Below, piece by piece: positions 1 through 10,351 of a DNA stretch of 64,000 bases. Positions within the stretch are counted from its first letter, which is position 1, and the number at the start of each line of letters is the position of its first letter. Below the pieces are notes generated by a model that worked only from the letters and a program-made list of their open reading frames with translations, was not told the origin of the DNA and searched no databases. Location of the stretch: NCBI RefSeq assembly GCF_029167375.1, contig NZ_JARFTP010000002.1:1-64000 (forward strand). The letters are read 5' to 3'. Position numbers and translations under genes: made by a program. This stretch comes from Tsukamurella sp. 8F. Its GTDB lineage: Bacteria; Actinomycetota; Actinomycetes; Mycobacteriales; Mycobacteriaceae.

Positions 1-1095
1 GGCGCCCCCCCCCCCCCCCGCTCCCGCAGGTGGGAGTGGCGGCCGCAGCTGGCCCCGGGATCGCGTGTCGACGACGCCGTCGATCCCGAGGACCCGGCGG
101 CGGCCCTCGTCCGGCTCCGCTCGCGAGAGCACCGAAACCCGATCGAATACGGTTGCGACGGAGGCTATCTCACGTTCAGCTACGATCACGGTCTCGGCGA
201 CGGCCGTCTGCCGATGAACCTGCTCGCGTTGATGTCGCGGGCCGGTGGTAGCGCCGCGCCCGACTTCGGCGTCGAGGTGCGCGGGCCCGTGGTCCGGCGG
301 CTGGCGGGAGTGGCGCGCACCGAGCCCGTCGAGCTCGGGCGCGCGGTCGCGGCGATCGTCCGGCGCGACCGCGACGTGGGCCACCACCCGGTGGCGCGCA
401 CCGCGGTCGAGGTCGCGCGAGGCGTCCACATCGGCTCGGTCACGTCCGCCCCCGGGCTGCTGGCGCGTCTCGACGAGACCCGCCGCGCCCGTCGCCTGAG
501 CCGGGTCGCCGTCGTGACGCACTACGTGCAGCGCGGGCTGAGCGAGGCCGGCGTGCCGATGGCGGGCGAGGCCGAAGTCCTGGTCGATCTGCGCCGCGAC
601 GCAGGATGGCAGGGGCCGGGGACGCTGGCCAACCTGTTCTCCGTTGTGGCCGTTCCTGTTTCGGGGTCTATTGCCGACCTGGCGGCTGCACTCGCCCACG
701 ACACCGAGCCCGTGCGCGCGGTGCCGAGGTCGGCACTGTCGCTCGCTCTGCGCTACCCGCAGGCCCGGCGCATGCGACGAGCCTCCGCCGGCCGTCCGCC
801 CGCCGTGTCGCTCGGTCCCGACGTGCCGGTGCGCCTGACCGTCACGGACCTGAGCGGCGCGATCGCGCCTCGCGACGTCCAGTGGGCCGAGCCCGAGGCG
901 GGCCCGCCTGTGTTCGCGATCTCGATCCCGCCCGCGACGGGCGATCACCTCGCTCTCGGCATCACGGCGACCCGAGGGCACCTCCACTTGACGCTCACCG
1001 GCGTCGGCGACCGCTTCGACCGGAGCGGCCTGTGTGACGGCCTGGATCGTGCCCTCGCCGGGATCGCGGAATGGCTGGAGGCGAAGGCCCCGTGA
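1..1095 (+). CDS. Condensation-fold acyltransferase, 5' end missing
   Basis: The reading frame is open from the first base, so the N-terminus lies outside the window. Near residue 62 of the visible part is DHGLGDG, a variant of the HHxxxDG catalytic motif of NRPS condensation domains and PapA/WES-type acyltransferases; the second His and the DG are kept and the first His is Asp. The C-terminal third (VTDLSG, then a beta-rich stretch ending in an amphipathic helix) fits the second half of that fold. In an intact family member the motif sits near residue 120-140, so roughly 60-80 residues are missing. The stop overlaps the next glycosyltransferase start (GTGA), so the two are translationally coupled. 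I infer that it acylates a sugar or lipid of the polysaccharide made by this cluster. The substrate is unknown. Confidence 0.6.
   Translation, partial: GAPPPPRSRRWEWRPQLAPGSRVDDAVDPEDPAAALVRLRSREHRNPIEYGCDGGYLTFSYDHGLGDGRLPMNLLALMSRAGGSAAPDFGVEVRGPVVRRLAGVARTEPVELGRAVAAIVRRDRDVGHHPVARTAVEVARGVHIGSVTSAPGLLARLDETRRARRLSRVAVVTHYVQRGLSEAGVPMAGEAEVLVDLRRDAGWQGPGTLANLFSVVAVPVSGSIADLAAALAHDTEPVRAVPRSALSLALRYPQARRMRRASAGRPPAVSLGPDVPVRLTVTDLSGAIAPRDVQWAEPEAGPPVFAISIPPATGDHLALGITATRGHLHLTLTGVGDRFDRSGLCDGLDRALAGIAEWLEAKAP
5..19. repeat. 15-base poly-C tract inside the acyltransferase gene
   Basis: Fifteen consecutive C lie at the very edge of the window, read in frame as a run of prolines. A tract this long is prone to slipped-strand length change and also to sequencing or assembly error. 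Confidence 0.6.
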
Positions 1096-2213
1096 CGTCA
1101 CGCCTGCGCATCCTCCACGTCGTCACGCTGGCGTCACCCGACGGGGCGTTCGGCGGGCCTCTGACGGTCGCGCTCGCACAGGCCAGGGCCTTGGCGGACG
1201 CCGGACACGACGTCACGGTGGCCGCCGGGGCCCGGGGTTACACCGAACTGCCCGGCGAGCTGGGTGGTGTGCCGGCGGCGCTCTTCCCGGTCCGCCGCGT
1301 CGCCCCGATACCCGGCTTCGCGCCCCTGTGGCCGATCGGGATGCGCCGATGGTTGCGCGCGCGCCTCGCCGACTTCGACATCGTCCACGTCCACCTGGCT
1401 CGCGACCTGGTGACCATGCCCGCCGCACTGCTCGCACGGCGGATGGGCGTGCCCTACTGCGTGCAGACGCACGGCATGGTGGTGCCGGGCCGCCGCGCTT
1501 ACGCGCTGATCGATGCCCCGGTGACGCGGAGCGTGCTGGAGAGCGCGCGGACCGTGCTGGCCCTGTCCGCCGACGAGCGCGAACAGGTCGACGAGATCGC
1601 GCGGTCGAATGCGCGCATATCGTTGCTACACAATGGTATACGCGTATCCGAAGTGGCTCGATCACGCAGCGGTCGTCCGATGGCGGCGTTCCTGGCCCGG
1701 CTGCACCCGCGCAAGCGACCCGAGGTGTTCGCCGAGATCGCCCGTCAGCTGCTGGGCCAGGGAGTCGACGCCGACTTCGTGCTGTACGGGCCGCCGGAGG
1801 GCGCCGAGGGGGCCGTCGACGCCGTGATCGGAGCCGCGGGCGACGACGGTCGTCTGCGCCGCACCGGGGCGGTCGCTCCCGACCGCGTCGCTGAGACCCT
1901 CGCGGGTGCCGACGTCCTGATCGTCACCGCGGAACGCGAGCCCTTCGGCATGACCGTGCTCGAGGCCCTCGCCGTGGGAACCCCGGTGATCATGCGGTCC
2001 GACGGCGGCCTCGCCGACTTCGTCGAGCGCAGCGGCGCCGGCCTGGTGGTCGACGGCGATGTGGCCTCGTTCGCGGCGGCGACCGCGGCGCTTCTCGCGG
2101 ACCGCGAGGCGGCCGCGGCCATGGGCGCACGGGGACGCGAGGCCGTCGCGCAGGCGTACGGCATGGACGGCGTCGTGCGGATCCTCTCCCGTGCCTATGG
2201 AGGCGCCGGATGA
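1092..2213 (+). CDS. GT4-family glycosyltransferase
   Basis: This is a retaining GT-B glycosyltransferase of about 373 residues that would transfer a nucleotide-activated sugar to the growing repeat unit on the cytoplasmic side. The N-terminal Rossmann half opens with RILHVVTLASPDGAFGGP, the glycine-rich acceptor loop. The C-terminal half carries the GT4 E-x7-E signature in EREPFGMTVLEALAVGTPV near residue 280, followed by SDGGLADFV. An upstream ATG exists at 1071, but the GTG at 1092 overlaps the preceding TGA and follows GGAGG at 1077, so I chose it. The gene overlaps the next one by ATGA. Sugar specificity cannot be read from sequence. Confidence 0.85.
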   Translation: MTSRLRILHVVTLASPDGAFGGPLTVALAQARALADAGHDVTVAAGARGYTELPGELGGVPAALFPVRRVAPIPGFAPLWPIGMRRWLRARLADFDIVHVHLARDLVTMPAALLARRMGVPYCVQTHGMVVPGRRAYALIDAPVTRSVLESARTVLALSADEREQVDEIARSNARISLLHNGIRVSEVARSRSGRPMAAFLARLHPRKRPEVFAEIARQLLGQGVDADFVLYGPPEGAEGAVDAVIGAAGDDGRLRRTGAVAPDRVAETLAGADVLIVTAEREPFGMTVLEALAVGTPVIMRSDGGLADFVERSGAGLVVDGDVASFAAATAALLADREAAAAMGARGREAVAQAYGMDGVVRILSRAYGGAG

Positions 2214-2968
2214 GCCGTCTGATGCGCATCGGAACGCTCGTCGTCGTCGCGGTGGTCGCGGCGGCGGCCTGTGTGTGGGGTTTCACGCGCGGGGAGCCGA
2301 CTCCGCCGCCGGCGCGGTCCGTCGACCTCGACCTGTCGAAGCTGCCGGACGGCCCCGCGCCTGATCGGTTCGGTCCGGACGAGCCCGCGGCGTACTCGTG
2401 GAAGGGCGAGGGCGACGGTCTGCGGCCGCGCGTTCGTGGCGGGCGGCTGGAGACCGCGCCGCAGACGACCGGCGCTGCCGCCACGTACATGACGTCGCGC
2501 AGGTTGGGCGCGGGTATCGCCGAGATCGGGGCGCGCTGGGTCTTCGAGGCGCCCGTCCGCCCGAAGGGCGCCGCGGGGCGCGGGGCGATCGCCCTCGTGG
2601 TCTCCGACGCGATCGCCGACGGGGCGGCGCAACCGGCACCGCCGTTCGGCCTGCACCTGGTGGTCACGGCCGTCAATTGGAACCTGGCGGTGAAGGGACG
2701 CGACGCCGCACAGCCGCTGACCGTGATCGCTGCCGGCTCGTTCGCGTCGCCGTTGGCCGAGGACGGGCGGACGGCGAACGAGATCCGCGTCGGGATCCGA
2801 GGTACCACCGCAACGATCGAGCCGCCGGATGGAACCCGACGCGTCGTGACCGACGCGCGCATCGGCGCGTGGCGGGGCGGCCACGCGACGTTCGAGACGT
2901 ATGCCAACCACGGCGCATCGGATTCGCGCGGGGCCTTCGAGAGGGTGTGGGCACATGGCGAGCGGTAA
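2210..2968 (+). CDS. Secreted or membrane-anchored protein of the polysaccharide cluster
   Basis: I do not recognise a family with certainty. The protein has 252 residues and begins MSRLMR, then a hydrophobic segment (about residues 7-24) and a Pro-rich linker, so it should face outside. There is a Cys at the end of the hydrophobic stretch, but the preceding residues do not make a good lipobox. The remainder is beta-rich (FEAPVRPKGAAGRGAIALVV, GLHLVVTAVNWNLAVKG, NEIRVGIRGTTATIEPP) and looks like a jelly-roll, concanavalin-like carbohydrate-binding or lyase fold. It overlaps its neighbours at both ends (ATGA with the glycosyltransferase; 14 bases with the fusion gene), which places it in the same operon. 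A role in handling the exported polymer is inferred from position only. Confidence 0.6.
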   Translation: MSRLMRIGTLVVVAVVAAAACVWGFTRGEPTPPPARSVDLDLSKLPDGPAPDRFGPDEPAAYSWKGEGDGLRPRVRGGRLETAPQTTGAAATYMTSRRLGAGIAEIGARWVFEAPVRPKGAAGRGAIALVVSDAIADGAAQPAPPFGLHLVVTAVNWNLAVKGRDAAQPLTVIAAGSFASPLAEDGRTANEIRVGIRGTTATIEPPDGTRRVVTDARIGAWRGGHATFETYANHGASDSRGAFERVWAHGER

Positions 2969-5696
2969 GGTCCGGGTGCTGGCAGGCACGGTCGACCAGA
3001 TATTCTCCAGCGCCGGCAACGGTTTCATCCTGTATGCCCTGGCCGTCGTGTCCACGCTGGTCGAGTTCGGCGTCCTGGCGATGCTCTTCACCCTCGTCGC
3101 CGGCGCGGTGGGCGTGCTCCGCGGCGCACTGGGCACGCCCACCCTGCTGGCGTCGGACACCGAGCCGGAGCAGTTGCGCAGCGAGGGCCGGCACGCCGTC
3201 GCGGCAGCGATGTCCGTGGGGCTGTGCTGCGCCGCGGTCATCGCCGCGGTCTCCTGGTGTCTGGCCACTCCGAGCGGCTACATCCTTGCCGCTGCAACGC
3301 CTATCGTCCTCGCGCAGGACATCTTGCGATACGTGGCCATCGCGGTCGACCGCACGCCGGTCGCCACGGTATGGGACGGTATCTGGTGCGCCGGGGCCGT
3401 GGCAGTCTTCCTGGGCGGCGGCCTTATGCGCCACGTGTTCACCCCCGCCGTAGTGCTGACGGTATGGGCCGGGTTCGCGGCTGCCGCATTCCTCGGGCTC
3501 GCCGTCACGTTGGGAATCAGACCCCGGTTCGAGGGGATCATGCGTTGGGGCCGTACCGGTCTCGGCGACCGGCTGCGGTTCGGTGCTGACGCGGGCCTGG
3601 AGCAACTCGGGGTCCTGTTGCTGCTCGTGGCCGTCGCCGGCTTCATCGGCGCCGAGGCGTCAGGTGCGCTGCGCGGCGCGACGGCGGTTCTTGCGCCTGT
3701 GGCGATCCTGTCTGCCGCAGTGCCACTCGTGGTCATCCCGCAGGCTCGCCGCGGCGGCATGTCGGGACCGCGGACGTGGTCGCTGCTGGTCAAGACCGGG
3801 GCGCTCACATCGTTGCTCGGCTTGGCGGTGGGTGTCGCGGTGTGGGCCGTGCCGGAGCGTGTCGGAGCCCTGGTGCTCGGCGACACCTATCACACCGCCC
3901 GGCCGGTGATCCTGGTCATGGCCATCGAATACGCCGCATCGACATGGCTTTTCACGCTCTCCACCTACCTGCGCGCACGAGGGCGGAGCAGCGCGGTGCT
4001 GACGCTGAAGTCTGTGCACCTGGGGATCGCGCTGGTCGTGTGCACCGCCATCGCCGCGGCGGCGCGCAGCGCCGTGCCCGTGGCAGTCGGACTCGCGGTT
4101 GTGACGGCGGTACTGGCCCTCGCCGCTGCCGCGGTGATCCGCCCGTGGCGCGCGCCGCGCGGATCGAGCGTGGTGTCGGGCGGCCTCGCTGCGCGCAGGC
4201 CTCTGCCCGAAGCCGGCCCTGGGTGGCCTCATGTGTGGGCCGCGTGGACCGTCGTCGCACTCGGCGTGGTGGTGCCCGGGCTGTTGATCACCACGACGGC
4301 CCGGCCCGACGATCTGGTATGGCTGGGTCCGGCCGCCGTCGCGGCCGTCGCTGCGATCCGGTTCGGTCAGCTGGTCGGGAGAGGCGAGCGGCGGCTGTAC
4401 GAGATGACCTTCTGGGTGTTCACCTACGCGTTCATGGGGCTCGCGGCCCTGGCGCAGGTGCGCGAGCACTCCTGGCCGCTGACGGTGGCGCGGGCGGACT
4501 GGGGAACGGTCGGCCCGGCCACTGCCGTCGTCGGGCTCGGCGTGGCCGCGTTCCTCGCCGGGGCGGCGCTGGACCGGTGGCGCGAACGCAGCGGCCGGCC
4601 GAGCCGCACACGTGCGGCCGAGACCGGACCGCACGGCGGTATCGCCGACGATCTGTCGCACCGGCGCGTCATCGCCCTCGCCGTGGTCGCGATCCTGTTC
4701 AATCTCCTGTACCTCTCCCGCCTGGGATTCGGCCAGTTCCTGCTGACGCGCGAGCAGGCGTATGCGGGGTTCGTGGCAGTGTGGGGTCCGGGGCCGGTGG
4801 GCATCTTCGCGCGGTCGTTCGCCGGCATGGCGCTGCTCGTCTCGGTGGTGGCGCTCATCCGGCTGCGTCGTATCGCACGAGTCGCGCCCACGCCGCCGGG
4901 CCGTGGCGCGTCGGCGCTGACGATGACGCTGCTGATCGTGGCGCTCGTGCTGCTCGCGGACACCATGAACCCCGTGTCCAACGCGCGCTATCTTTCGGGG
5001 ACCGCGATCCTGGGTGTCCTCACCGCGCTCGGGTTCTTCTCCACGCGGCTGCGCTTCCGAGTGCTGGCGCTCAGCTTCGTGGGCGGGCTGGTGGTGTTGT
5101 TCCCGCTGGCCGACGCGTTCCGGTACACCCCGGGAGGCTCGGTGAAGGCATCGAATCCGTTGCAGTCGCTGCTGTCGCCCGACTACGACTCGTTCGCCCA
5201 GATCGGCAATGCACTGGTCGTCGCGGACCGCGACGGGATCGTCCCCGGTCGGCAGTTCCTGGGTGTCCTCCTCTGGTGGTTCCCCCGCTCGGTCTGGCCG
5301 GACAAGCCACTCGACACCGGCATCTACCTCGCACAGGCTCGCGGCTACCCGTTCACCAACCTGTCCGCCCCGTTGTGGTGCGAGGCGTTCCTCAACGGCG
5401 GCTGGATCTGCGTGCTGGTGGTCTTCCTCGTCCTCGGGTGGCTCTTCCGCCGGTGGGACCGCCGCATCGAGATGCAGATGCGTCTGGTGGGAATGCCCGG
5501 CGTGCTGGGCTGCATCCTGCCGTTCTACACGCTGATCCTCCTGAGAGGTTCTCTGCTGCAGGCGATGTCGTATCTCACGGTGATCATCGGCTGCCACCTG
5601 GCAGTCAAGCGGTATCACGGTCCGCCGGCGCGCCTGGTCCGCGGGTTGCCGGAGACTCTGGCGCCCGAGAGCGTGCCGATCGGGGTCCGGTCGTGA
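2955..5696 (+). CDS. Wzx-like flippase fused to Wzy-like polysaccharide polymerase
   Basis: This is a single 913-residue multi-pass membrane protein. Residues 1 to about 400 look like a polysaccharide flippase of the MOP/Wzx type, with about twelve hydrophobic segments starting AGTVDQIFSSAGNGFILYAL. After a short Arg-rich cytoplasmic linker (PWRAPRGSSVV), a second multi-pass half from about residue 420 to the end resembles oligosaccharide repeat-unit polymerases. The key match is LLWWFPRSVWPDKPLDTG near residue 773, the conserved periplasmic loop (FIPRSxWPxKP) of that family. An ATG at 2901 exists, but the ATG at 2955 gives a normal flippase N-terminus. The gene lies between the secreted protein and an SGNH hydrolase with overlapping ends. 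Wzx and Wzy are normally separate proteins; no internal stop or frame change separates the halves here. Confidence 0.75.
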   Translation: MASGKVRVLAGTVDQIFSSAGNGFILYALAVVSTLVEFGVLAMLFTLVAGAVGVLRGALGTPTLLASDTEPEQLRSEGRHAVAAAMSVGLCCAAVIAAVSWCLATPSGYILAAATPIVLAQDILRYVAIAVDRTPVATVWDGIWCAGAVAVFLGGGLMRHVFTPAVVLTVWAGFAAAAFLGLAVTLGIRPRFEGIMRWGRTGLGDRLRFGADAGLEQLGVLLLLVAVAGFIGAEASGALRGATAVLAPVAILSAAVPLVVIPQARRGGMSGPRTWSLLVKTGALTSLLGLAVGVAVWAVPERVGALVLGDTYHTARPVILVMAIEYAASTWLFTLSTYLRARGRSSAVLTLKSVHLGIALVVCTAIAAAARSAVPVAVGLAVVTAVLALAAAAVIRPWRAPRGSSVVSGGLAARRPLPEAGPGWPHVWAAWTVVALGVVVPGLLITTTARPDDLVWLGPAAVAAVAAIRFGQLVGRGERRLYEMTFWVFTYAFMGLAALAQVREHSWPLTVARADWGTVGPATAVVGLGVAAFLAGAALDRWRERSGRPSRTRAAETGPHGGIADDLSHRRVIALAVVAILFNLLYLSRLGFGQFLLTREQAYAGFVAVWGPGPVGIFARSFAGMALLVSVVALIRLRRIARVAPTPPGRGASALTMTLLIVALVLLADTMNPVSNARYLSGTAILGVLTALGFFSTRLRFRVLALSFVGGLVVLFPLADAFRYTPGGSVKASNPLQSLLSPDYDSFAQIGNALVVADRDGIVPGRQFLGVLLWWFPRSVWPDKPLDTGIYLAQARGYPFTNLSAPLWCEAFLNGGWICVLVVFLVLGWLFRRWDRRIEMQMRLVGMPGVLGCILPFYTLILLRGSLLQAMSYLTVIIGCHLAVKRYHGPPARLVRGLPETLAPESVPIGVRS

Positions 5697-6517
5697 GGCG
5701 CATGTGGCCGGTGGCGGCCGTCGCGCTACTGCTGGTCGTCGCCGGGATCTCGGCGGCGGTCGGCTGGCACCGGGCGACCGGGACCCCCGGTCGCGTCGCC
5801 GCAACCGCCTCCGACCAGGTGCAGCGCGCGAGCTCGGTCCTGATAGTGGGCGACAGCTTCGTCGGCGGCACGGGCGACCCCTCCTTCCCGGTCTACCCCG
5901 AGCTGCTCGGAGAGTTGATGGGCTGGAACGTGCGTGTGGACGGTGTCGGTGGCAGCGGATTCATGCCGCAACTCGACGCCGGAGGACGTCGGCCGCCGGG
6001 CGGCCGCCGGGCGCCGCTGATCGAGCGCCTGCCCGCAGACCAGCGGCACTACCGCCCCGACGTCGTGTTGGTGGATGCTGGCCGCAACGACCTGGGAAGG
6101 GTTCCATCGCAGGTGATTCCGTACATCGACGACTATTTCGAGCGCCTGCGGGCGGCCTTTCCGCAAGCGCGGATCGTCGCCCTGATCCCTACATACGCCA
6201 CCGACCGGGAGGCTACCAACCTGCCCGCGCTCCGCGCGGCGATCACTGGCGCCGTCCGTGGCTACCAGGGTCTCGTGATCGACCCGGCTGCGCAGCACTG
6301 GTACGACCGTGCCGATCTGCGATCGCTGCTGGGGCCGGACGACGTGCACTTCAACGGGGCCGGCAATCGCTACTACGCGCGCCGGATCGCAGATGCGCTG
6401 CGCAGCGCCGGATTCGGTGTCGGGACGCAGGGTGGTGCCGCGGCACATGGTGGACCGATAACGACGGGAGACGGAGTGGGAGCGAGTACCGCGGCCGGGA
6501 CGGGGGCCGGCGGATGA
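5693..6517 (+). CDS. Membrane-anchored SGNH/GDSL hydrolase
   Basis: The protein has 274 residues with an N-terminal signal anchor (MWPVAAVALLLVVAGI), so the catalytic domain faces outside. The SGNH blocks are all visible: GDSFVGG with the nucleophile Ser near residue 54, GVGGSG with the oxyanion Gly, GRNDLG with the block III Asn near residue 131, and DDVHFNG with the catalytic Asp-His pair near residue 216. Such enzymes remove or transfer O-acyl groups on exopolysaccharides. With an acyltransferase at each end of the locus, a role in trimming polymer O-acylation is a reasonable inference. The GTG at 5693 overlaps the preceding TGA; ATG 5702 is the alternative start. The C-terminal tail is Gly/Ala/Thr-rich and probably disordered. 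Confidence 0.8.
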   Translation: MRRMWPVAAVALLLVVAGISAAVGWHRATGTPGRVAATASDQVQRASSVLIVGDSFVGGTGDPSFPVYPELLGELMGWNVRVDGVGGSGFMPQLDAGGRRPPGGRRAPLIERLPADQRHYRPDVVLVDAGRNDLGRVPSQVIPYIDDYFERLRAAFPQARIVALIPTYATDREATNLPALRAAITGAVRGYQGLVIDPAAQHWYDRADLRSLLGPDDVHFNGAGNRYYARRIADALRSAGFGVGTQGGAAAHGGPITTGDGVGASTAAGTGAGG

Positions 6518-7857
6518 GGCGGGGCCTGGTGACGATCCGGGGACGCGTGGCGAGCGCGGCGGCGGTGGTCGCGGTGTGCGCCGCCGCGGGTGCCGCGGTC
6601 GGCGGCGTGGCGACCGCGCTGTGGCCCCCGAGGTACGACGCCACGACGCGTGTGATGCTGGCGACACCGGAGTGGAACGACTCCAGCGCGGTGCCGAGCG
6701 CGCAGGCGGCTTCGAGCGCATCCTCGTACGGCGACGAGTTCACGCAGCAACGCATGGCCACATACCTCGAGCTCGCGACCTCGACCACGGTTCTGGGCCC
6801 CGCCGCATCCACCGTCGGTCTGTCCGGCGCCCCGGCCCTGTCCGGTGCCGTGACGGTGCGCCTGGTGCCCGATACGGTCATGCTCGACGTGCGCGCGGAG
6901 GACGGCGACCCGCAGCGTGCGGCGGACATCGCCAACGCGGTCGCGCGCCGCTTCGCCGCGGTCGTCCGCGACGTCGAGCGGCCCACCGCCGATGCGATCG
7001 CCCCGGTTCAGCCGGTCGTGGTCACCCCGGCGACGGCGGCCGCCCGCGCCGTGTCTCCGGATCCGGCGGTGTTGCTCACCACGGGGGCGGCGATCGGCGC
7101 GGCCGCCGGCCTAACGATCGCGGTCTCGCGGCGGAGGGGGCTTGCGGCCAGATGGGCAGGCGGCACCCAGGTGGTCGAGACATCCGGCGCCGAGCTGCCC
7201 GTGCTCGGGTCGGTGCCCGGCGACACCCCGGTCGTGTTCGACGCCTGTCCGGTGGTACTCGGGGACGCGGCGCAGGCTGTACGTGCCACTCGTGCAAAGG
7301 TTCTCACGGCCGCTCGAGAACACGGCGCGCACGTTCTCGCCGTCACGGCACCCACCGCCGACGTGTCCGCATCCGGAGCCGCGGCGCTCCTAGCGGCTGC
7401 CGTGTCCGAGACGGCGAGGTCGGCTGCGGTGATCGATGCGTCCGGCCTCGTAGCATCCTGGGGCGGGGAGGAGCTCTCGGCCGCGGGCGGCGCCCACGCC
7501 GACCTAGAGCTGGGGTGCTGCGGCCGCGTCGGCGCCTACCGCGTGCCCCCGGCAGACGCGGGTCGGATCGCCGTCGGCGGCGCCGAAGTAGGCGCTGTGA
7601 TCGAGAGGGCCGCGCGCCGTTTCGATCTGGTGCTCGTCGTGACCGAGCCTTGGGACTCGGGCCCGGGCGCCGTCGACGTCCTGGCGCACGCACAGGCACA
7701 TGTGCTCGTGGCGGTGGCCGACACCGACCCCCGCGACCTCGACGCTGCCGCAACCGGACTCGCAGCCGATCACGCCACGCTTCTGGGGGTCGTGATCGCG
7801 GACCGCCCAGCCGATTCGCCCCATACATCCTTCGTGAGGACGGAGACACCTCGATGA
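6514..7857 (+). CDS. Wzz-like polysaccharide co-polymerase with a dead kinase-like domain (1)
   Basis: The protein has 447 residues and the Wzz/CapA architecture: a first transmembrane helix at about residues 12-35, an extracellular domain with PPRYDATTRVML and FTQQRMATYLELATS, and a second helix near residues 190-207 (PAVLLTTGAAIGAAAGL). A cytoplasmic domain that aligns by eye with BY-kinases follows. In active kinases this part begins VTSxxPGEGKT (Walker A); here it reads VTAPTADVSASG, with no GKT/S, and the Walker A' Asp motif is reduced to VIDASG. No Tyr-rich tail is visible. It should therefore set chain length without phosphotransfer, or serve as a structural partner. It overlaps both neighbours by ATGA and is followed by a paralogue of the same design. 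Confidence 0.75.
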   Translation: MRRGLVTIRGRVASAAAVVAVCAAAGAAVGGVATALWPPRYDATTRVMLATPEWNDSSAVPSAQAASSASSYGDEFTQQRMATYLELATSTTVLGPAASTVGLSGAPALSGAVTVRLVPDTVMLDVRAEDGDPQRAADIANAVARRFAAVVRDVERPTADAIAPVQPVVVTPATAAARAVSPDPAVLLTTGAAIGAAAGLTIAVSRRRGLAARWAGGTQVVETSGAELPVLGSVPGDTPVVFDACPVVLGDAAQAVRATRAKVLTAAREHGAHVLAVTAPTADVSASGAAALLAAAVSETARSAAVIDASGLVASWGGEELSAAGGAHADLELGCCGRVGAYRVPPADAGRIAVGGAEVGAVIERAARRFDLVLVVTEPWDSGPGAVDVLAHAQAHVLVAVADTDPRDLDAAATGLAADHATLLGVVIADRPADSPHTSFVRTETPR

Positions 7858-8927
7858 ACACGCTCAAGCTCTTCGGCCTGGTATTGCGCCGCCGTGCGTT
7901 CCCGGCGTTGCTGGTGGTGCTGCTCGTGGCCGCGGTCGTAGGACTGCTGGCCGGCACCACGCGCCGCGACTACGTCGCGACCGCGACCCTGTTCATGCGG
8001 GCCCCGGACGTCAAGAGTTCTGCGAGTGCCTACCAGGGCGACCTGTTCTCGCGGCAACGTGTCGTGACGTATCAGGACCTGGTTACCAGCCCCGACCTCG
8101 CCCGGCGCGTCGTGGACAAGCTGTCGCTGCGCGACCAGCCGCAGGACCTCGTCACGAAGGTATCCGCCGACAACCCGAAGAACACGGTGCTGCTGGACAT
8201 CTCGGTCACCGACCCGGATCGGCGGCACGCGGTGGACCTCGCCAACGGGTACGCGCAGGTTTTCGGCGACTACATCGGCGAGGTCGAGCACGTCGACAAG
8301 AATTCGGACCTGCCGCCGCTCGCCACCGTTGTCGCGCCTGCCGATACGGCGCATACGACACGGGCCGGGATGCCGCCGGTACTGGTCGCCGTCGTTGCGG
8401 CGGTGGTCGCCGCGCTCGCGGTCGTCGCGGTGGTGGTCGCCCTGGAGTTCGCCGACCGCCGGATCAGGTCGCGGCGCCGGATAGAGGCCATTGCGGGCGT
8501 ACCGGTACTCGGGGTGCTCGGATCCACCGAGGCCCACTCCGACGGCGACCGCGGTCCGAGCCCCGAGGCCGAGCGCCTAGCGGTCACCGTCGCCCATCGC
8601 CTGCGTGGCACGGGTAGCGAGGCGACCGTGCTCGTTGCGGGCGCATCGTCCGCCGACGGCGCGGACGGCGTCGCCGAGCAGTTGCGCGCGACGCTGGCGG
8701 ACCGGGGCGTTAACGTGGTCGAGGGTGACGGTGATCCGGAGTCCCTCGCCTTCGCGCAGGCCGCGGCCGACGCCGACCGCGCGCTGGCCGTGGTGCGTCC
8801 TGGGGTCACGAGCCGCGTCGCGTTCGCGAATCTCATGCACGCCCTGCGGGTCTCGGAGACCGAGGTCGTCGGCGTCGTCGTGGTCGGCGCGCGGACGACT
8901 GCGACCGTGGCCGGAATCTACGCCTGA
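7854..8927 (+). CDS. Wzz-like polysaccharide co-polymerase with a dead kinase-like domain (2)
   Basis: This 357-residue paralogue of the preceding gene begins MNTLKLFGLVLRRRAF, followed by a first membrane helix. An extracellular domain with DYVATATLFMRAPD and FSRQRVVTYQDLVTSPDLA is typical of Wzz. A long second helix (PVLVAVVAAVVAALAVV) ends in the basic stop ADRRIRSRRRIE. The cytoplasmic end keeps the core strands (ATVLVAGASSADGADGVAEQ, DRALAVVRPG, EVVGVVVVG) but has no Walker A or A' motif and no Tyr cluster. It is the last gene of the plus-strand polysaccharide operon and ends 14 bases before the convergent GH71 gene. It could form mixed oligomers with the preceding protein; that is inference. 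Confidence 0.75.
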   Translation: MNTLKLFGLVLRRRAFPALLVVLLVAAVVGLLAGTTRRDYVATATLFMRAPDVKSSASAYQGDLFSRQRVVTYQDLVTSPDLARRVVDKLSLRDQPQDLVTKVSADNPKNTVLLDISVTDPDRRHAVDLANGYAQVFGDYIGEVEHVDKNSDLPPLATVVAPADTAHTTRAGMPPVLVAVVAAVVAALAVVAVVVALEFADRRIRSRRRIEAIAGVPVLGVLGSTEAHSDGDRGPSPEAERLAVTVAHRLRGTGSEATVLVAGASSADGADGVAEQLRATLADRGVNVVEGDGDPESLAFAQAAADADRALAVVRPGVTSRVAFANLMHALRVSETEVVGVVVVGARTTATVAGIYA

Positions 8928-8941
8928 GTTCCGAGTCCGGG

Positions 8942-10351
8942 TCACTCCGCCACGACGTACGTGAGGTCCTGGTAGCGCGGGGTGGAGATCACCTGCTCGG
9001 GTGAACGGGTTCGCACGCCGACGCGCCCGTCACGTTCCAACTCGGCCGAGACCGCGCCGGCGGCGAGCGGGGCGATGCAGTGCCCAGGGCCCGCCGGCAC
9101 CGAGCAGCGCGTCCGTCGGCCGCCGACCGTGATGACCACGGTGGCCGGCGCGGTCGTCAGTGTGACCGCCTCCGCGACGTCGACGGGGGCCGTGGTGCCT
9201 GCTGGTGTGTGGGCCAGCGCCGTCTGGACGATCGAGGGGGCCGGGGTGGCGAACTGCGTGCGGTGTACCAGGAACAGGCGGTCTCGGGTGATCTCCGGCG
9301 GACCGGAACGGAAGCCGGCGCGCCTGTATGCGTCGAGGTCCAGCAGGGCGTGCCCGCTCCGCTGCGTCGGCGCGAATGCGGTGCTCTCCGCGTAGTCGTT
9401 CCACGTGATCAGCTGCGCCCATTCGGCGTTCGAATCCTCGGCGGCCGCCCACATGTTGTCCAGTGTCTCGGTGCCGCCCGCCTCGTAGTACAGGTCAGCG
9501 TCCGGCCGGTAGTCCTGGAACGCTATGGGGGACATCCATATCCGCCCCAGGCGGTGCGCGCGTCGAGCCAGATCGACGGTGGACCCCCGGACCCGCCGAT
9601 CCGGATCCGTCGTCTGCGGGTCACGGGAGCCGCCCCAGGAACCGAGACCGTACGAGATCGGTGCGAACGCCTCGAGATTGCGGTCGGCGTCGAGTAGGAC
9701 GGGGACGAATGCGACCGGTCGCGTGAGCCGCGCGGCGAACTCGTCGAGCGTGCTGCGCCACCATGCCGGTGACTGTCGCTCTGCTCGGTAGGCCGACAGC
9801 ACCGGGCGGCCGTCGGGTAGGTGGTACGCGGACGCTGAGCGCAGCGATCCGGCGAGACGATCCGCGATCGTCGCCGGGCTCTCCCTGCCGAGCGCCCCGT
9901 CCATGTCGATCGTGGGCACGATGACGAAGCGCCCCACTCTCGAGGCCGCGGTCTCGAGGTCCGTGAGTACGGCGAGGTCGAGATCCGGGGCGATGACGTC
10001 GACGGTGAACCCGTCGATACCGGCGTTCCTCGCAGTCCGTACCTCCGACTCCAGATCCGTCAGGCGCCAGTCTCGGTCGAGTGGTGGCCTGATGCGCGGC
10101 CGGTCGCGCAGATAGCCGCCGTGCGCGAGATGCCGGCCCTCCTCGCCTGCCGGGGCGAGGTACTGCGTGGTGTAGTAATCCGTCGCTGCGGGCTGGTCGT
10201 CGATCGAGACGGGGAAGTGGGGGAGGTAGTGTGCGAACACCATCCGTTGCGGGTGCGGTGTGGGCCGGCTCGTCGGAGCGGACGCCTCGGTCCCGGAACA
10301 GGCTGCGGCGACGACGGCCACGAGGGCGAGGGCCACGGTACGGATCCTCAT
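8942..10351 (-). CDS. GH71-like (alpha-1,3-glucanase family) lipoprotein
   Basis: The protein has 469 residues with a lipoprotein signal peptide whose lipobox is VVAAAC (Cys at residue 18), followed by a Ser/Thr/Pro linker. The mature part opens QRMVFAHYLPHFPVS, the usual start of the GH71/GH99-like barrel. It continues with ARNAGIDGFTVDVIAPD, a strand carrying acidic residues, VGRFVIVPTIDMDG, and late WNDYAES, where barrel enzymes of this type place a catalytic-site acid. The last 100 residues look like a beta-sandwich accessory domain. GH71 enzymes cleave alpha-1,3-glucan, so an alpha-1,3-linked polymer made by the adjacent operon is an attractive but untested idea. The gene is divergent from the beta-helix acyltransferase (59-base gap) and convergent with the second Wzz gene. 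Confidence 0.7.
   Translation of the reverse strand: MRIRTVALALVAVVAAACSGTEASAPTSRPTPHPQRMVFAHYLPHFPVSIDDQPAATDYYTTQYLAPAGEEGRHLAHGGYLRDRPRIRPPLDRDWRLTDLESEVRTARNAGIDGFTVDVIAPDLDLAVLTDLETAASRVGRFVIVPTIDMDGALGRESPATIADRLAGSLRSASAYHLPDGRPVLSAYRAERQSPAWWRSTLDEFAARLTRPVAFVPVLLDADRNLEAFAPISYGLGSWGGSRDPQTTDPDRRVRGSTVDLARRAHRLGRIWMSPIAFQDYRPDADLYYEAGGTETLDNMWAAAEDSNAEWAQLITWNDYAESTAFAPTQRSGHALLDLDAYRRAGFRSGPPEITRDRLFLVHRTQFATPAPSIVQTALAHTPAGTTAPVDVAEAVTLTTAPATVVITVGGRRTRCSVPAGPGHCIAPLAAGAVSAELERDGRVGVRTRSPEQVISTPRYQDLTYVVAE

Follow-up and report, generated by a model that had tools for sequence, protein, structure and literature searches.

A Tsukamurella gene predicted to join a Wzx-like flippase and a Wzy-like polymerase in one protein

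The window analysed here is a stretch of 64,000 nucleotides from Tsukamurella sp. 8F (contig NZ_JARFTP010000002.1, positions 1 to 64,000), with which contig C12 of its genome begins. Near its beginning lies a gene whose product appears to combine a Wzx-like flippase (MOP superfamily) and a Wzy-like polymerase of repeat units in one polypeptide chain. From the ATG at position 2955 to the stop codon at 5694-5696 the frame encodes 913 residues and has zero internal stops; starting instead from an ATG further upstream, at 2901, would lengthen the product to 931 residues, and aligned relatives agree better with the start at 2955. The G+C content of the third codon position lies between 0.81 and 0.93 in each 300-base stretch of this frame, positions 4165-4220 included. 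Long frames lacking a second domain also occur, several of them looking like read-through of G+C-rich DNA: the flippase part was absent from 20 other long frames tested as possible further fusions, and the second domain from 12 further ones. The open frame alone is therefore no evidence of a fusion. As far as the sequences go, the case for a fusion is the homology of both halves rather than the mere open frame, and both halves have homologues encoded as stand-alone genes in other genomes (homology search).

The N-terminal half (N-half) resembles MOP exporters. In the predicted-fold search (Foldseek), residues 1-398 matched such exporters with 12 core helices, and in a profile comparison with PF13440-type flippases, run with controls, the N-half scored 96.2 over 362 columns (full length). 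One of its 23 relatives has a MatE match (Pfam, 0.0023). The N-half is thus a member of the MOP superfamily by fold and profile, not by curated cut-off. Compared with the known Wzx flippases of this superfamily, WzxE included, it is too divergent for the Pfam and NCBIfam models and differs from them in its covalent joining to a polymerase.

For the C-terminal half (C-half), some of the relatives are recognized by curated models. At E ≤0.1, 12 of 18 C-halves gave a match to TIGR04370 (oligosaccharide repeat unit polymerase; best 7.9e-11), in some cases along almost the entire profile (18-392 of 396), and 6 gave one to PF14296 (O-ag_pol_Wzy; best 3.8e-4). The relative with the E-value of 7.9e-11 (one of the 18) may pass the curated cut-off. 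When ten proteins were scored singly against TIGR04370 (E ≤0.01), five matched, the highest score being 38.4 bits (cut-off 40); no match was found at this threshold for the G171 frame described below, for three of the full fusions or for L003, a relative in which the halves are split. Furthermore, a profile comparison of the C-half with TIGR04370-type proteins (a profile of 10 proteins, 6 of which exceed the family cut-off) gave a probability of 97.0 over 90 columns, the controls giving 0.3 and 0.2. Modelled alone, the C-half reached a mean predicted local distance difference test score (pLDDT) of 82.8 and a predicted template modelling score (pTM) of 0.86. The fold-search lists for the fusion protein were filled by the N-half and are uninformative on the presence of polymerase matches. 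The large loop predicted late in this half carries DYDSFAQI, PRxxWxxKxxDTG and RGYxxxNLSxP, and the 18-row alignment of C-halves shows no variation at P777, R778, W781 and K784. The window protein shares the profile match, the 12 hydrophobic peaks and the large late loop with the TIGR04370 and PF14296 polymerases and differs from them in that it bears an N-terminal flippase and escapes those models. The initial annotation had called the first half Wzx-like, with a lack of any MOP match as the point on which this would fall, and the second half Wzy-like with a polymerase loop FPRSVWPDKP. MOP matches were found by profile and by fold, the Wzy-like character follows from the profile comparison and the TIGR04370 matches of the relatives, and FPRSVWPDKP is present inside the predicted ~90-residue loop.

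The two modules are joined by a linker rich in arginine and lysine (pLDDT below 50 at residues 398-423). It is the least conserved of the three regions (20.6% identity vs 38.4% for the N domain and 48.3% for the C domain), and its length between two conserved positions is 32 residues in the window protein, the other 11 fusions having 54-104. Hydropathy averaged over 12 fusions shows 12 + 12 peaks in addition to the large loop. With the charged loops on one side and 12 helices per module, the termini of both modules should all be cytoplasmic; a flexible linker can therefore join the modules without altering the topology of either.

Table 1. Features of the fusion gene and its surroundings in the window.
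Feature	Position	Strand	Basis
Fusion gene, 913 residues: Wzx-like (MOP) domain, linker and Wzy-like domain	2955..5696	+	frame, alignment, predicted fold
MOP-fold flippase domain, 12 long helices, residues 1-398	2955..4148	+	fold and profile comparison, with controls
Linker, residues 399-424, low confidence, positively charged, presumably cytoplasmic	4149..4226	+	pLDDT, charge
Wzy-like repeat-unit polymerase domain, 12 hydrophobic peaks, residues 425-913	4227..5693	+	profile, relatives' TIGR04370 matches, hydropathy, model
Large predicted extracellular loop, candidate catalytic loop, residues 722-812	5118..5390	+	conserved columns, topology
FPRSVWPDKP, residues 776-785, within loop 722-812	5280..5309	+	translation, alignment
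GT4-type glycosyltransferase, conserved-cluster member	1071..2213	+	Glycos_transf_1 1.9e-23, synteny
252-residue protein	2210..2968	+	no Pfam or NCBIfam match; synteny
GDSL-type lipase/esterase	5693..6517	+	Lipase_GDSL_2 7.3e-18
Probable co-polymerase-like protein, start estimated	6514..7857	+	named by eye from frame
Wzz-like polysaccharide co-polymerase	7854..8927	+	TIGR01006 67.8 bits (cut-off 296), Pfam Wzz 0.006
GH71-family glycoside hydrolase	8942..10351	-	PF03659 7.2e-24

Eleven other genomes encode the same fusion in full length, their proteins being 41-42% identical to that of the window. In all 12 full fusions the N domain is complete and uninterrupted by a stop, with a mean identity of 38.4% to the N domain of the window protein. 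In the genus of the window the fusion was found in 1 of 16 genomes. Matches occur in 21 of 401 genomes of the family-level set (three with both halves full length in one frame) and in 32 of 396 genomes of the genus of G389 (11 with the full fusion), and a class-level set of 394 genomes yielded no further genome with both halves among the candidates scored; these three counts are lower bounds, as the best two candidates per genome were scored, and absences there are weak. In a set of 59 genomes from the genus to which G383 belongs, the sole trace of the fusion is a decayed form in G383 itself. Two expectations of the initial annotation, that one 913-residue frame joins two multi-pass halves and that the fusion is conserved in related genomes, are thus borne out.

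A census of 22 genomes with a C-half at E <1e-90 revealed 12 fused forms, five with the N-type gene followed by the C-type gene on the same strand, one divergent pair (G310, with one gene between the halves), one pair ~12 kb apart (G041), one decayed form (G383) and two without an N-type match. In the latter two, no N-type match was found among all 13 candidates scored (G343) and among two of six candidates or in the ~20 kb locus (G697). The five split pairs (G161, G170, G244, G108, G043) belong to the same two families in the same order as in the window fusion and have GDSL, Wzz-like and GH71 genes nearby in 5/5 cases, as at the window locus. However, they encode two proteins, the start codon of the second frame overlapping the stop codon of the first by four bases (ATGA or GTGA, 5/5), unlike the single chain of the window; the overlapping codon would be the start in use. 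A second, free-standing N-type flippase gene was seen in the fusion-bearing genomes G641 (L073 17145-18350, within the same ~20 kb as the fusion) and G602 (G602:C82:2305-3540).

The genes around the fusion are conserved as well. A GT4 gene lies directly upstream in 9/11 other fusion loci, and a homologue of the 252-residue protein, the frame of which overlaps the fusion start by 14 bases, directly upstream in 11/11. A GDSL gene is found downstream in 11/11 loci; in the window its GTG start overlaps the fusion stop (GTGA), with an alternative ATG at 5702. Both overlaps are as in a tight operon. A Wzz-like homologue is likewise located downstream in 11/11 loci (note that the hits of the window's Wzz-like protein are under curated cut-offs), and a GH71 homologue within ~20 kb in 7/11. 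The locus has the trait of Wzx/Wzy-dependent loci, i.e., a glycosyltransferase and a Wzz-like co-polymerase beside flippase and polymerase. The only match in the genome to an initiating phosphoglycosyl transferase (PGT) is on contig C8, ~10 kb from the end of that contig, and the window opens contig C12. A second polysaccharide cluster was observed on C8 (L090 6495-17633), comprising this PGT, a PF13440 flippase, a Wzy_C protein and glycosyltransferase-like frames; lying near the contig end, the C8 cluster may adjoin the start of the window.

We therefore propose, with a probability of about 80%, that the product of the gene is a bifunctional Wzx-Wzy protein, the N module flipping the repeat unit and the C module polymerizing it; both modules would then be active. 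Several results weigh against this proposal. Searches of Pfam and NCBIfam gave nothing for the window protein or its C-half at E ≤1, and none of the 12 fusions hit a Pfam model at 0.1. No MOP family in these databases recognizes the N-half of the window, the sole hit being a sub-threshold chance match to Jagunal (0.15), and the window protein is unmatched by the TIGR04370 and PF14296 models and thus under their curated cut-offs. Neither half was detected among the tested frames by plain hmmsearch at 1e-3 with profiles of the PF13440 and TIGR04370 types, so that both assignments need profile-profile comparison or fold. The Foldseek E-values of the MOP match are modest (five rows ≤0.001), and the polymerase match is limited to its 90 columns. 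When the 12 fused sequences alone were used (hhalign, number of effective sequences 2.3), the MOP comparison fell to 13.6 and the polymerase comparison dropped to 60.8. Finally, contig C8 holds four PF13440 matches (best 1.2e-33) besides the Wzy_C protein and the only PGT of the genome, and flipping by another protein is therefore possible. A PDB sequence search of the window protein and PDB profile searches of the halves returned nothing useful.

The strongest alternative, unlikely as we consider it, is that the flippase half is a scaffold or a decaying domain, the fused polymerase being active and the flipping being done by a separate flippase, e.g., one of the PF13440-type on C8. Such a state may be illustrated by G383, where a decayed flippase remnant (profile positions 216-415) is fused to an intact polymerase (L063 9374-11896) and an intact N-type gene (L063 16246-17676) is located ~4 kb further on in the same 20 kb. 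The remnant scored 21.7 bits in an unfiltered search vs 4.2 for the best of 200 shuffles and was missed by default hmmsearch. Its combination with an intact separate flippase is the pattern expected if the flippase function is needed, though not in cis. The second N-type flippases of G641 and G602 and the other MOP genes on C8 of the window genome point in the same direction. However, the N domain of the 12 full fusions has kept its full length, its stop-free frame, its mean identity and its 12 averaged hydropathy peaks, and no second gene of the N-half family is present in the window genome at E ≤1. Moreover, the strongest flippase on C8 adjoins PGT, glycosyltransferases and a Wzy_C protein and may serve another polymer.

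Even less probable is that the C-half represents another outer-face transferase (a ligase or glycosyltransferase), making the gene a flippase-ligase fusion. The general topology is common to polymerases, ligases and other multi-pass transferases, and the profile match of 90 columns is compatible with this option. Against it stand the TIGR04370 and PF14296 matches among the 18 C-halves, some of them near the full profile length, the Wzz-like gene in all 11 other fusion loci, and the Pfam scan of the window neighbours, which showed no other Wzy-type protein. That two genes were merged by an assembly or sequencing error can practically be dismissed: although related species have two separate overlapping genes that a single-base error could fuse in one assembly, the 11 other genomes with both halves in one frame (two of them, G657 and G613, one-contig assemblies), with linkers as divergent as 54-104 residues, refute it for the family and exclude a frameshift or join near 4165-4220, raised at the outset, as the cause.

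The tree of C-halves places the 12 fusions in a single group together with the decayed fusion of G383 (95/94), two changes of the label "fused" being needed; note that four rows of this tree have long branches. The tree of N-halves needs three changes, since N-type genes that stand alone in G383, G686 and G687 fall within the fusions. Near-copies and fragments were also excluded from A2, an alignment of 23 rows, and from A3, one of 18 rows; the rows outside the trees are L018 (the same gene as L004), L023 (G171), the weak or fragmentary L026-L028, L060 and L061, and the second N-type copies. These trees are compatible with a fusion that arose once, early, and was later split or copied, although they do not prove a single origin. 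The fusion probably arose from an overlapping wzx-wzy pair, as found in relatives, by loss of the stop/start overlap.

A frame of 930 codons in G171 (L023:1-2787 (-) / L081:7972-10761 (-)) combines an N-type flippase with a distant polymerase-like part, which scored 15.0 bits vs 4.9 for the best of 200 shuffles and contains VPRSIWPEKP. Its flippase belongs to the same family as that of the window, whereas its polymerase half differs, and the other genes of the window cluster were not found nearby; for these two reasons it is probably, as judged from sequence, a different fusion of independent origin.

A search of plasmids yielded no match for the N-half and five partial matches for the C-half, none covering more than 44% of the query; phage records yielded no match for the C-half. 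Viral contigs contain no relative of the N-half and three of the C-half (L069:5001-6290, L070:3919-5556, L071:4965-6353). By eye, these three sit among apparent phage tail or lysis genes, and in L069 a GDSL-like frame is located directly upstream. They may be phage-borne polymerases altering the surface sugar of the host.

In the proposed mechanism, the N-terminal MOP module would flip the lipid-linked repeat unit (the lipid carrier presumably being undecaprenyl pyrophosphate) to the outer face, near the C module. The chain would go back to the cytoplasm via the even number of helices and continue as the flexible, charged linker. Through its outer loop, the Wzy module at the C-terminus would then add the flipped unit to the growing chain, the length of which would be set by the Wzz-like protein of the cluster. 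This anatomy would bring proximity and 1:1 supply of the modules. A 1:1 hand-over between them is plausible, and hand-over from the flippase to the polymerase module might be preferential. A true channelling machine, in which the unit passes from the MOP cavity to the polymerase site of the same chain unmixed with the bulk lipid pool, is a tentative proposition that we regard as possible rather than probable. In that case the Wzx:Wzy ratio would be fixed at 1:1, the Wzz-like ring would have to accommodate both modules, and the protein would be a natural single-chain Wzx-Wzy complex.

Flipping and polymerization normally fall to two separate proteins, and contact between them has long been suggested rather than demonstrated. 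According to a 2015 paper, a Wzx-Wzy-Wzz complex is commonly proposed, only the Wzy-Wzz interaction having been confirmed by then (PMC4863624). WzyE is placed within a ring of ~8 WzzE, the complex including Wzx being a proposal from complementation experiments (2023; PMC10030265). A paper on Rhizobium describes two-hybrid contacts of co-polymerases with the Wzy-like PssT and cites genetic links between Wzx and Wzy/Wzz (PMC4182512), and in the Actinoplanes wps-1 cluster Wzx, Wzy and Wzz are assigned to three separate proteins (PMC13390465). No description of a Wzx-Wzy fusion was found in the literature searched, with most subscription papers and all preprints outside its scope.

The fusion bears on the question of a common Wzx-Wzy-Wzz machine. 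It limits the ways in which a co-polymerase ring can enclose the polymerase, and the single chain permits direct tests of geometry, stoichiometry and hand-over. As a conserved natural fusion, it is genetic evidence that close proximity of Wzx and Wzy is tolerated and probably useful.

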